In this document: positions 40,178 to 45,328 of the stretch, one piece after another
Layout: every line of letters starts with the position of its first letter
Numbering within the stretch: the stretch's first letter is position 1
Assembly: GCF_000219125.1 (NCBI RefSeq)
Contig: NZ_AFGF01000040.1
Coordinates: 1 to 64,000, forward strand
DNA from: Acetonema longum DSM 6540
GTDB taxonomy: Bacteria > Bacillota > Negativicutes > Sporomusales > Acetonemataceae
Direction of reading: 5' to 3'
DNA length: 64,000 bases
The notes under the pieces: generated by a model
What the model was told of the DNA's origin: nothing
Seen by the model: only the letters and a program-made list of their open reading frames with translations
Databases searched by the model: none
Made by a program: the position numbers and the translations under genes

Positions 40178-41182
40178 TTGGAAATGAGGCGATTGGGGCG
40201 TACCGATATGAAGGTAACCGCCATTAGCTTTGGAGCACTGCCTATACAGCGCTGCAGCATGGATGAGGCGGGACCGGTGCTCCATGCTGCGCTGGACGCA
40301 GGCATTAATTTTTTTGATACAGCCCGGGCTTATACTGACAGTGAGGCCAAAATCGGCCGGTACATTTCATCCCGCCGCAAGGAGTACTACCTGGCTGATA
40401 AGAGCATGGCCCGGACAAAAGCAGGCATACTCAAGGATATTGACATCAGCTTAGGCAATATGAAGACGGATACTATTGATCTGTATCAGATCCATAATAT
40501 TAAAGAGCAGAAAGACTTAGACGCCGTACTGGCTCCCGATGGAGCGCTGGAAGGCCTGAAAGCGGCCCAGGCCGCCGGTAAGATTCGCTTTATCGGCGTA
40601 ACCGGTCACAGCATTCCGCTGCTGATTCAGGCTTTAAGAACTAATGAATTCAGTACGGTACAGGTGCCGTTCAACTGTATTGAAACAGGGGCGCTGGAAG
40701 AACTGTTCCCATTGGCCGACTCCCTGGATATTGGCAAGATTGCCATGAAACCGCTGGGCGGCGGTCAGATTACCAAAACCGAACTGGCTCTCCGGTTTAT
40801 CCTGGCCCATAATGTGGTGGCCATCCCCGGCATGGACGAAGTGAAGCATATCGAAGAAAATTTGGCGCCGGCAAAGCATTTTCGCCCGCTCACTGCGGTT
40901 GAACAGCGGGAACTGGCGGAGGAAGCCAAAACGATCGGCTCCAATTTCTGCCGCCGCTGCGGTTATTGTATGCCCTGCGCCGTGAATATCGATATACCCA
41001 CCACTTTTATTTATCACCTGCAGTATGTCCGCTACGGCATGACCGATGCCATTCCCCAGCGTTACGCCTCCCTGCCGGCCAAAGCCTCGGCCTGCATTGA
41101 ATGCGGCGTTTGTGAGAGCCGCTGCCCCTATGACTTGCCGATTCGGGAGAGGATGAAGAAGGTAGCCGCCGATCTCGGTTAA
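40178..41182 (+). CDS. Aldo/keto reductase with C-terminal ferredoxin domain
   Basis: The 334-residue protein has an aldo/keto reductase barrel (NFFDTARAYTDSE with catalytic Tyr) to about residue 240. A cysteine-rich tail follows with CRRCGYCMPC and CIECGVCESRCP, able to bind two [4Fe-4S] clusters. Such fusions are typical of anaerobes and may take electrons from ferredoxin; the substrate is unknown. TTG at 40178 is preferred because AAGGAGGA lies 7 nt upstream; ATG 40184 is 13 nt away. Its stop overlaps the convergent gene. Confidence 0.9.
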   Translation: MEMRRLGRTDMKVTAISFGALPIQRCSMDEAGPVLHAALDAGINFFDTARAYTDSEAKIGRYISSRRKEYYLADKSMARTKAGILKDIDISLGNMKTDTIDLYQIHNIKEQKDLDAVLAPDGALEGLKAAQAAGKIRFIGVTGHSIPLLIQALRTNEFSTVQVPFNCIETGALEELFPLADSLDIGKIAMKPLGGGQITKTELALRFILAHNVVAIPGMDEVKHIEENLAPAKHFRPLTAVEQRELAEEAKTIGSNFCRRCGYCMPCAVNIDIPTTFIYHLQYVRYGMTDAIPQRYASLPAKASACIECGVCESRCPYDLPIRERMKKVAADLG

Positions 41183-41577
41183 TTTTCCTCCTCAGGCTGT
41201 TGGGGCGTTTCCTCTTGCGGCGGGTCAAATAAGGCCGTTTGCTCCCACAGCTTTGGCGGTTGCTCTGTTTCAGGCTGGCATTCAGGCTGAAGCGGAGCCG
41301 GTGCCAAAGGGAAGTCGGAGGGGCTGGCCGTCATCTCTAGCTCCAGGCCGCCGGTATAGGGCGAAAATGTGTTAAAAACAAATGCATAAAACGTGGCGGC
41401 TGCAGCCGAACATAAACCGAAGAACAAACCGAGAAACATCCCGCCGACGATTCCCAGTACATTTCTTTCCACCAATCCGATGAAGATTCCCAACCCACCG
41501 CCGAAACAGACGCCGGCGGCAAAAAATAAGCGAAAAATCATCGGGCACGGCACACGGGTAATCCGATAAGAAGCCAT
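41179..41577 (-). CDS. Small hypothetical membrane protein
   Basis: The 132-residue protein has two hydrophobic segments at about residues 13-35 and 40-65 with glycine-rich faces. An acidic, Pro/Gln-rich C-terminal tail of about 55 residues ends in EEEN. It is not recognised. GAGGTGG lies 5 nt before ATG 41577. It overlaps the convergent aldo/keto reductase by four bases and is divergent from the flavoprotein gene. Confidence 0.65.
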   Translation of the reverse strand: MASYRITRVPCPMIFRLFFAAGVCFGGGLGIFIGLVERNVLGIVGGMFLGLFFGLCSAAAATFYAFVFNTFSPYTGGLELEMTASPSDFPLAPAPLQPECQPETEQPPKLWEQTALFDPPQEETPQQPEEEN

Positions 41578-41620
41578 TGAGGCCACCTCATTCCCATTAA
41601 ACTTTTCAAGGGGGGATTGT

Positions 41621-42496
41621 ATGTCAGAAACAATTTACGATATCGCGGTTGTCGGCGGTGGGCCGGCCGGACTTTCAGCAGCTTTAACCGGACGGATCCG
41701 CAACAAAAATATTCTGTTGTTCGAACATCTGGATTTTAGCCTGAAACTGCAAAAAGCCCATAAAGTGCATAATTATTTGGGCATACCCGAGATCTCCGGG
41801 AAAGATCTGATGCAACAGTTTGTCGATCATGTCCTGCATTTTGAACCCCATCTGGTCAAACAAAAAGTGGTAAACGTCTTTCCTGCCGGCGAAGGTTTCA
41901 ACCTGCTTACTCCTACCGATGCCTATCAGGCAAAAACTGTCATCCTGGCTACCGGGGTAGTCAGCACCGCCTTGTTTGCCGGGGAACGGGAATATCTGGG
42001 ACGGGGCGTCAGCTACTGCGCTACCTGTGACGGCATGCTGTACCGGAACCGGGATGTGGCCGTGATATCCTATACGGCGGAAGGCGAGCATGAGGCTGAA
42101 TTTTTGGGGGAAATCTGCCGCAATGTATACTATCTGCCTCAGTATAAACCGGAGCAGGAACTTAAGCCGGAGCGGTCCAATATTGTTGTCAGGCAGCAGC
42201 GGCCTCAGAAAATTACCGGCAAGGATACGGTAGGGCAGCTTATTACCGACAAAGAGAGCTTGGATGTAGCCGGCATCTTCATACTGCGCCAGTCTGATCC
42301 GGTGGAGAATATTCTCGCCGGCATCGAACTCAACGGTGAAGTCATCAAGGTCAATCCCGACATGTCAACCAGCATTCCCGGCGTTTTCGCCGCCGGCGAC
42401 TGCACCGGCAAGCCTTTGCAGATATCCCGGGCCACCGGCCAAGGGCTGGTGGCGGTATTGAGCGCCATTAACTATCTCGATATGACAGCCACATGA
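41621..42496 (+). CDS. Thioredoxin-reductase-like flavoprotein lacking an NADPH motif
   Basis: The 291-residue FAD protein has the N-terminal GGGPAGLSAAL motif and the redox pair CATC (Cys133/136) in YCATCDGM as in thioredoxin reductases. The usual NADPH-binding GxGxxA is replaced by AVISYTAEGEHEAEF near residue 148, and no HRRxxxR motif follows. This pattern is known from ferredoxin-linked or otherwise pyridine-nucleotide-independent thioredoxin reductases of clostridia. It probably reduces a thioredoxin with ferredoxin electrons; the donor is inference. AGGGGGGA precedes the ATG. Its 3' end overlaps the convergent gene by 29 bp. Confidence 0.85.
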   Translation: MSETIYDIAVVGGGPAGLSAALTGRIRNKNILLFEHLDFSLKLQKAHKVHNYLGIPEISGKDLMQQFVDHVLHFEPHLVKQKVVNVFPAGEGFNLLTPTDAYQAKTVILATGVVSTALFAGEREYLGRGVSYCATCDGMLYRNRDVAVISYTAEGEHEAEFLGEICRNVYYLPQYKPEQELKPERSNIVVRQQRPQKITGKDTVGQLITDKESLDVAGIFILRQSDPVENILAGIELNGEVIKVNPDMSTSIPGVFAAGDCTGKPLQISRATGQGLVAVLSAINYLDMTAT

Positions 42497-43517
42497 GCCT
42501 GAAGGTAAAATAAAGGGACAGGAGCCCGAAAAAAGGATAAATAGTCCGGAGCAGGGCGGTGAAGCCAAGACCGCTGAAAGCCAGACCGGCGGCAGTAACG
42601 ATGAGCACGCAGCGGTTTAAGGGCCAGCGTCCGACCCCGGCCAACTTATCCGCCGCGCCGTACAGGTTGACGATGGTAGTGGTGTAAATCGCCATCAGCA
42701 GTACCGCCGCATACAGCAGGTAACTGGCCCAATGCTGAGACTGGGCGATGGATAACATAGGCACTTCCGAGGTCACTACCTGAGGGTAGTGGATTAAGAT
42801 GACCGCCGTCAGCCAAAACGCCAGCAAAGTCAATATTAAACCGCCCAATTGTCCGCCTCGTTGGCGGACTGTTTTTTCCGGCGCGGCTTTGCCCAAAGGA
42901 GCCAAAATGCTGGCGCCCAGCACCATATTATAAGAAAGATAAAGCAGCCCGGACAGAATAAACCGCCAGGAAAGCGGTTCCGCTTCGATGAAGAGCAAAG
43001 GTACGGCTTCGACCCCGTGATGCACCAGAGAATAAAAGCTGATTCCCACCGAACAGCAGATCATAACCGGCATCAGCAGCATATTGACCGAGGCGATGCC
43101 CCGGATGCCGCCCATCATGGTGATCAAAAGGGCGACGGTCATGACGGCCAGGCCGGCGGCATAGGGCAGGTTAAAGAAGTCCCGTCCGATGGTGGCTGCC
43201 GCAGCCAGCATGATGCTCAGTCCGCTGAACAAAAAGACAGCGGTGCAAGCATCCAGGATAGCCCCCAGTTTGGGGCCGCAGACATAATACAGGATCTGAT
43301 GATACCCTGTGGCCTGGAGACGGTGCCCCAACTCGATAATATAAGGGCCTAAGCGGAAGAATCCGTAACTGGCAATTGCCAGTCCAATGAGACCATACAA
43401 TCCGTAAGCGGCGAAAAATTGCAGTAATTCCTGGCCTGAGGCAAATCCCGCCCCAATGACGGTGCTTACATAGGTAAAGGCGATCTGTATGCTCGCCAGC
43501 AGTTGGGATCGGCTCAT
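42468..43517 (-). CDS. YkvI-like membrane transporter
   Basis: The 349-residue polytopic protein has about ten membrane segments and begins with TYVSTVIGAGFASGQELLQFF, the LeuT-like unwound first helix typical of the YkvI family of APC-superfamily proteins. No substrate is known. ATG 43517 is chosen because GAGGTG precedes it; the longer frame to 43550 lacks a site. A dispersed repeat copy lies upstream. It is convergent with the flavoprotein. Confidence 0.87.
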   Translation of the reverse strand: MSRSQLLASIQIAFTYVSTVIGAGFASGQELLQFFAAYGLYGLIGLAIASYGFFRLGPYIIELGHRLQATGYHQILYYVCGPKLGAILDACTAVFLFSGLSIMLAAAATIGRDFFNLPYAAGLAVMTVALLITMMGGIRGIASVNMLLMPVMICCSVGISFYSLVHHGVEAVPLLFIEAEPLSWRFILSGLLYLSYNMVLGASILAPLGKAAPEKTVRQRGGQLGGLILTLLAFWLTAVILIHYPQVVTSEVPMLSIAQSQHWASYLLYAAVLLMAIYTTTIVNLYGAADKLAGVGRWPLNRCVLIVTAAGLAFSGLGFTALLRTIYPFFGLLSLYFTFRLMWLSYRDS

Positions 43518-43560
43518 TCCATCACCTCGATTCTCTACGGGAACCCCCAAATCGCTGTGG

Positions 43561-43772: not shown

Positions 43773-44020
43773 AAATATACTATGGCTATAGATCATGGTT
43801 AAATGCGGTGAAAAGGCAAGATCGGCAAGTGTTTTTCAGAGAACCGGCGGCTGGTGCAAGCCGGTAATACTACCGGTTATCCACCTTGGAGCGGACGGCG
43901 GTGAGCCGTACGGGAAGGCGCCCGTTACAGCGTGGATGAGCGGACTGGTCGGGTCAACCGGGGTGGCAACGCGGGAATCAATTCTCGTCCCTATAGTGGA
44001 CGGGAGTTTTTTATTTATTG
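43773..44020 (+). promoter_or_regulatory. T-box riboswitch (tRNA-Ser responsive)
   Basis: The leader shows the T-box box GGGTGGCAACGCGG at about 43961, with the UGGC bulge (43964-43967) that pairs with the 3' end of uncharged tRNA-Ser (discriminator G). Stem I carries the CAGAGAACCGGCGG and GCTGGTGCAAGCCGG segments. A likely UCC serine specifier lies at 43880-43882 before ACCTTGGAG. The leader ends in a terminator (CTCGTCC with GGACGGG, then six Ts) near 43990-44015. Uncharged tRNA-Ser should stabilise the antiterminator and switch serS on. Confidence 0.92.
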
Positions 44021-44059
44021 AACGTCAACCAATCTACTATATATCAGGGGGAATCATTA

Positions 44060-45328
44060 ATGTTGGACATGAAATTTGTCAGAGACCATACCGACAAAGT
44101 TGAGACAGCACTTAAAAATCGGGGTGCAGCCGTCAGCCTGGACCAATTCAAGGCACTGGAGAAAGAACGGCGCGAACTTTTATTGGCAGTGGAAACGTTG
44201 AAAAATAACCGCAACACTGTCTCCCAGGAGATCAGTCGGATGAAAAAGGCCGGGGAAAATGCCGACGCAAAGATTTTAGAAATGCGTCAGGTGGGTGACC
44301 GGATCGGGGAACTGGACAATAAAGTAAAAGAGACGGAAGCAGCCTTGGAGAATATCCTGCTGAATATTCCTAACGTGCCCCATGATTCTGTGCCGGTGGG
44401 GCCGAATGAGCACAGCAACAAGGAGATACGCCGCTGGGGCAATCCCCAAAATTTCGAGTTTACACCCAAAGCTCACTGGGATATCGGTGAAAGCCTGGGA
44501 ATTCTGGATTTTGAGCGGGGCGGCAAAGTTACCGGGGCCCGCTTTACCTTCTATCGGGGTCTGGGAGCAAAACTGGAGCGCGCGCTGATTAATTTCATGC
44601 TGGACCTTCATACCGGCAAGCATGGCTACATCGAATTCCTCCCGCCGTTTATCGTCAATAAGGACAGCATGTTCGGCACCGGCCAGCTGCCTAAATTCGC
44701 CGAAGACATGTTTAAGCTGGAAGGACTGGATTATTACCTGATTCCGACCGCCGAAGTACCGGTGACCAACTACCACCGTCAGGAGATTTTGGAGGCTAAG
44801 GATCTGCCTCTATACTATACGGCCTACAGCGCCTGTTTCCGGGCCGAAGCCGGAGCAGCCGGACGGGACACCCGGGGGCTGATCCGCCAGCACCAGTTTA
44901 ACAAAGTGGAACTGGTGAAGTTCAGCTTGCCGGAGCAGTCCTATGATGAACTGGAAAAATTGACGAATAACGCCGAGCAGGTGCTGCAGCTTTTGGGCCT
45001 GCCTTACCGGGTCATGCTGCTTTCCACCGGCGACATGGGTTTTTCCTCGGCGAAAACCTATGATCTGGAAGTTTGGCTGCCCAGCTTTAACGCCTACCGG
45101 GAGATTTCTTCCTGCTCGAATTTCGAAGACTTCCAGGCCCGCCGGGCTGACATCAAGTTCCGCCGGGAGCCTAAAGCCAAGCCGGAATACGTGCATACCC
45201 TGAACGGGTCCGGTGTGGCCATCGGCCGTACCGTGTCGGCTATCCTGGAAAATTACCAGCAGCCGGACGGTTCCGTCATCGTGCCGGAAGCGCTTCGTCC
45301 CTTTATGGGAGTGGATGTCATCCGATAA
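44060..45328 (+). CDS. serS: Serine--tRNA ligase
   Basis: The 422-residue class II aminoacyl-tRNA synthetase has the N-terminal coiled-coil arm (about residues 25-110) and the catalytic core with motif 2 ([20 protein letters not shown]) and motif 3 ([18 protein letters not shown]). It charges tRNA-Ser and also tRNA-Sec, whose gene lies at 48931. GGGGGA lies 7 nt before ATG 44060. Expression is set by the T-box upstream. Confidence 0.97.

Follow-up and report, generated by a model that had tools for sequence, protein, structure and literature searches.

The 64,000-nucleotide stretch of Acetonema longum DNA analysed here (the window) contains a complete open reading frame at 41621-42496 on the plus strand, which starts with ATG and encodes a 291-residue protein with the FAD domain and CxxC pair of NADPH-dependent thioredoxin reductases (TIGR01292) but without either of their NADPH motifs. 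This raises the question of which electron donor such an enzyme would use in a Negativicute, and how far the thiol economy of its host may depend on that donor. Based on the reading frame, phmmer matches, a phylogenetic tree and a fold comparison, we assign the product, with a probability of about 0.92, to the ferredoxin-flavin thioredoxin reductases (FFTRs), with ferredoxin as donor in place of NADPH. Ferredoxin use by the A. longum protein itself is expected by analogy with this family.

Sequence motifs and predicted fold

The original prediction described an intact FAD motif and CATC pair together with the absence of GxGxxA and HRRxxxR, and both parts of this description hold. Sequence and alignment place GGGPAG at residues 12-17 (41654-41671, plus strand), with G12 and G14-G17 (GPAG) invariant across 23 aligned FFTRs, and the redox-active CATC at residues 133-136 in the second domain (42017-42028, plus strand). 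Canonical NADPH enzymes served as the reference for the two NADPH motifs, in a gap-free register counted from the CxxC. In this register, a canonical enzyme of the same class (L052) reads VVGGGDAAVEEA...VHRRDSLR and the A. longum protein reads VISYTAEGEHEA...LPQYKPEQ. Thus, SYTAEG (residues 150-155; 42068-42085, plus strand) replaces the NADPH-binding GxGxxA, with all three of its fixed positions substituted, and PQYKPEQ (residues 173-179; 42137-42157, plus strand) replaces HRRxxxR. The substituted stretch is itself conserved among close relatives. The C-terminus ends in ...INYLDMTAT and tryptophan is absent from the whole protein, which has no counterpart of the C-terminal tail with a conserved Trp described for cyanobacterial FFTRs in PMC12796991. 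Upstream of the gene, the last base of a GGGGGG run lies 5 bases from the ATG, and a promoter and terminator scan returned nothing exceeding chance.

Among solved structures, the best phmmer matches are 6gnc (9.7e-73), 6gna (4.8e-69) and 6gnd (1.2e-67), all titled in Foldseek as Clostridium acetobutylicum FFTRs, followed by the Gloeobacter FFTR 5j60 (2.5e-35) and by NADPH enzymes at 2.5e-33 or weaker. According to PMC8469568, 6GNC is CaFFTR2 and 6XTF is the Gloeobacter FFTR with ferredoxin 1. The NCBIfam model of the NADPH-type enzyme (TRX_reduct, TIGR01292) scores 193.4 bits, below its cut-off of 343.45; the best Pfam match is the general Pyr_redox_2, and the model of the iron-sulphur FTR beta chain (PF02943) gives no match in the protein. 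The A. longum and C. acetobutylicum enzymes share their length, FAD motif, CATC and missing NADPH motifs, but they are only 39-42% identical, and after the CxxC the former reads CDGMLY where the latter read CDAPLY.

The fold was predicted with AlphaFold from an alignment of 65 of 80 sequences (79 references and the A. longum protein; a further row, holding X, had already been dropped from the references), giving a mean pLDDT of 94.1 and a pTM of 0.82; a model computed without an alignment (pLDDT 29.7) was set aside. Over the whole chain, the model superposes on the clostridial FFTRs at 2.7-3.3 Å, and in Foldseek at 2.8 Å on 6gnc (TM 0.86, 42% identity) and 2.6 Å on 6gna. The Gloeobacter violaceus and Prochlorococcus FFTRs (5j60, 6xtf), which also lack the NADPH motifs and have an open fold like that of the model, differ more in sequence (about 30% identity), and the Gloeobacter enzyme superposes over the whole chain at 3.8-4.1 Å (6xtf, 3.8 Å). 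Most NADPH enzymes among the rows shown lie about 10-16 Å away, owing to a different relative orientation of their two domains. In VIA-align, the clostridial FFTRs reach Z scores of 36.9, 35.4 and 33.8 and the Gloeobacter structures 29.5 and 29.1, and no other structure exceeds 28.3; here the atypical Desulfovibrio reductase 5nii lies at 5.6 Å and some other flavoproteins at 7-10 Å. The open FFTR domain arrangement of the model, 2.6-4.1 Å from known FFTRs, is supporting evidence, weak if taken alone, rather than proof, since AlphaFold may know these structures from its training.

Motif loss, phylogeny and distribution

Two sets of homologous frames, with a few loci in common, were used to follow the loss of the NADPH motifs. 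The first holds 139 frames (65 FFTR-like frames of the class at >160 bits and 74 other reductase-like frames chosen by the authors), and the second 109. In the first set, 64 of the 65 FFTR-like frames have the CxxC and are missing both NADPH motifs, the exception being L090, which lacks the second Cys; in the second, neither motif occurs in 63 of 64 FFTR-like frames, the exception, L182, retaining GxGxxA. With the loss shared so widely, the A. longum sequence is not a case of chance decay. As a caveat to the original prediction, a missing HRRxxxR does not mark such an enzyme by itself, since 47 of the 74 author-chosen other frames keep GxGxxA without it.

The tree comprises 99 author-chosen rows drawn from the 139 and 109 frames plus three PDB segments, with L088 and L157 as identical rows. 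The A. longum protein falls in a branch (100/98) with 24 Negativicute FFTRs, 16 FFTRs of the clostridial set (including L157, in fact a Negativicute), 6gnc, 6gna and L182. All NADPH enzymes in the tree lie outside this branch. So do the AhpF-like protein and the reductase-thioredoxin fusion of the A. longum genome. Within the branch, the A. longum protein differs in position from its clostridial counterparts, as 22 of the 24 Negativicute rows and L157 form a branch of their own (100/99). The remaining two, L092 and L095, group with 6gnc and 6gna, with a thioredoxin gene near each, and look like acquisitions from clostridia. Sequence, fold and tree thereby group the protein with the clostridial FFTRs and agree with the original prediction, which had pointed to the ferredoxin-using, pyridine-nucleotide-independent thioredoxin reductases of clostridia and to a tie between thiol redox state and ferredoxin in a Negativicute.

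Alternatively, the protein could be a thioredoxin reductase that depends on NAD(P)H and whose dinucleotide motifs are merely atypical and degenerate, as the overall architecture is that of an NTR and other homologues in the genome lose HRRxxxR yet keep GxGxxA. However, the A. longum protein keeps none of the three fixed residues of GxGxxA, the motif is missing across its relatives, and sequence, fold and tree side with the FFTRs, leaving this alternative extremely improbable. Points that we count against the assignment as an FFTR are the lack of an adjacent trxA, the identity of only ~40% to characterised enzymes and the presence of L090 in the branch. L090 (G031:C28), an FFTR-like frame, reads SYCAKVDG and has lost the second active-site cysteine; judged by its sequence, it cannot work in the usual way. 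The first branch of the FFTR clade is L182 (985-1833; Eubacteriales bacterium), which still carries GAGAEA and may represent an intermediate stage on the way to losing the dinucleotide site.

Cyanobacterial FFTRs are placed elsewhere, on the NADPH-enzyme side of the tree. Forcing them together with the clostridial and Negativicute FFTRs costs 31.3 log-likelihood units (p-AU 0.071), so that a single clade is not rejected; separate losses of NADPH binding are favoured by the tree but not proven. Seven further reductase homologues without GxGxxA and HRRxxxR (L190, L196, L202, L207, L220, L224 and L232) come from Nitrospirota, Omnitrophota, Aminicenantes, a Lokiarchaeon and a Bacillales genome; in the tree, five of these fall together with cyanobacterial FFTRs, and the seven are possibly ferredoxin-type enzymes as well.

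The FFTR-type protein is common, as judged from counts at three levels. Of the 200 class genomes, 93 contain a close homologue (E 2e-61 or better, at least 39% identity; counted by eye), and one more genome (G144) has a shorter match at 1.7e-44; the authors picked 20 loci from this match list. Within the order, 27 of 28 genomes have a close homologue, the exception being only 72% complete, and in the phylum sample matches at E 1e-55 or better occur in 119 of 398 genomes. The FFTR is thus the rule in one order of Negativicutes. Canonical NADPH enzymes with both motifs were found in five of the 28 genomes of the order among the frames over the cut-off that were read (L049, L052, L064, L066 and L069).

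Two other kinds of homologue recur. In other Negativicutes, a separate class of mostly 286-300 residues (L097-L102, L104-L107, L109-L111, L113-L116) has a GxGxYALHEA-like motif without HRRxxxR; the 10 of its rows included in the tree cluster on a single branch (99/95), separate from the FFTRs as well as from the NADPH enzymes. Homologues of ~305 residues (L103, L112, L117-L121, L123-L134, L136), found in no fewer than 20 of the order's 28 genomes, carry a GGGNSALQAAIEL-like motif, again without HRRxxxR, and the nine placed in the tree cluster with the AhpF-like protein.

Gene neighbourhood and the probable thioredoxin partner

The gene is flanked upstream by a minus-strand frame for a 135-residue protein with hydrophobic stretches and no Pfam match (41179-41586) and, beyond it, by an aldo-keto reductase with a C-terminal 4Fe-4S dicluster domain (40178-41182, plus strand), which is not an operon partner here because the opposite-strand frame intervenes. 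Downstream, a convergent minus-strand frame for a 360-residue probable membrane protein without a Pfam match (42468-43550) shares 29 bases with the 3' end of the FFTR gene, followed by a seryl-tRNA synthetase, named by eye (44018-45328). Flank homologues of these four neighbours occur in 28, 24, 34 and 13 of 65 class loci, respectively, as lower bounds, most flanks being 1.5-3 kb. The recurrence of these neighbours suggests vertical inheritance.

A trxA-trxB operon was considered and rejected, as no trxA adjoins the gene in the window. A thioredoxin gene lies in the flank of only two of the 65 class loci (L092 and L095, both on the 6gnc/6gna branch), and trxA adjoins the FFTR gene in 10 loci outside the class set; the neighbourhood of clostridial trxA-trxB operons is unlike that of the Negativicute FFTR loci. 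Clostridioides difficile TrxB1 and TrxB4, likened here by description only, also have no NAD(P)H motifs and group with FFTRs according to PMC10880999, but they are encoded in operons with trxA.

This arrangement could also fit an FFTR-fold disulfide reductase for which ferredoxin or flavodoxin is the donor but a protein other than thioredoxin the target. The missing adjacent trxA, the probable membrane proteins and 4Fe-4S aldo-keto reductase as conserved neighbours, and the reading ML in place of the FF thioredoxin-binding motif of PMC9025218 speak in its favour. However, the CATC is retained, as is the GRG ahead of it, a thioredoxin-binding motif according to PMC9025218, and three thioredoxin-containing relatives (see below) have the FFTR as their only full-length reductase homologue found. 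We regard a non-thioredoxin target as very unlikely and retain the assignment as an FFTR-type thioredoxin reductase.

For this enzyme, we infer from the family that NADPH cannot be used, that TrxA is the acceptor, and a catalytic cycle of the following kind. A homodimer holding FAD in an open, flavin-exposed arrangement would accept two single electrons from reduced low-potential ferredoxin, itself reduced by the genome's own pyruvate:ferredoxin oxidoreductase (PFOR). A domain rotation would then allow the CATC disulfide to be reduced and the electrons to be passed on to TrxA, the thioredoxin with WCGPC. What was once the NADPH domain would no longer hold a dinucleotide site and would persist as a scaffold on which the CxxC sits and thioredoxin docks.

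Thiol and ferredoxin systems of the genome and its relatives

The A. longum genome (99.93% complete, 295 contigs, so that a gap could still hide a gene) contains three proteins at 190 bits or more with the thioredoxin-reductase model, the next scoring 84 bits. Besides the FFTR-type protein, these are a 519-residue AhpF-like protein, which adjoins an AhpC-like gene (both named by eye), and a 413-residue thioredoxin reductase-thioredoxin fusion (G000:C239:27258-28406; L003, L007, L016), which has GSGDAA and, in place of HRRxxxR, IHDEGIL. The membrane genes beside the fusion resemble those of YeeE/YedE transporters, and homologues of the fusion occur in G111 and other genomes. In model searches of the genome, neither a canonical NADPH thioredoxin reductase nor an iron-sulphur FTR beta chain (PF02943) was found. 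The genome does encode one free WCGPC thioredoxin (TrxA) and three PFORs scoring above the cut-off, and the 30 Fer4 loci read include at least seven small ferredoxin-like frames with two clusters.

In three relatives, G054 (in one contig), G069 and G023, no hit other than the FFTR reaches E 1e-40, and the FFTR is the sole full-length thioredoxin reductase homologue found. Of the weaker hits listed, the nine that were read (L311-L319) lack a CxxC where the reductases have theirs. Two thioredoxins and one TlpA-like frame occur in each of the three genomes.

The FFTR could be the only electron route to the housekeeping thioredoxin in A. longum, and more clearly so in the G054-like relatives, with the whole thiol economy running on ferredoxin, not NADPH; we hold this reading tentatively, at somewhat less than even odds. 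If true, the thioredoxin-dependent thiol economy of an outer-membrane Firmicute would run on ferredoxin. A ferredoxin-run thioredoxin system has been reported for Gloeobacter and Prochlorococcus, FFTR-only cyanobacteria are described in PMC9025218 and PMC12796991, and the latter gives for the Gloeobacter FFTR a flavin potential low enough (-448 mV) to favour ferredoxin.

A literature search on ferredoxin-thioredoxin reductase with Sporomusa found nothing, and PMC10880999 (2024) was the sole paper returned for Negativicutes combined with thioredoxin reductase and ferredoxin. This work counts two to four TrxBs in Negativicutes and Clostridia and assigns to most of these bacteria an NTR plus a non-NTR, probably an FFTR, likewise recognising a non-NTR by the absence of GxGxxA and HRRxxxR. 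Since it already states as much, an FFTR in Negativicutes is not new in kind, and knowledge of the enzyme class is unchanged. What is mildly new, at the level of genome sequences, is a genome in which neither a canonical NADPH enzyme nor an FTR was found, and three relatives that appear to be FFTR-only. The assignment would correct a likely wrong annotation as an NADPH thioredoxin reductase. The remaining interest lies in the lineages in which the FFTR is seemingly the sole thioredoxin reductase, which would offer good material on how thiol redox state tracks the ferredoxin pool. In four relatives (L297, L298, L302 and L303), a second thioredoxin carries WCGYC or WCGFC in place of WCGPC.
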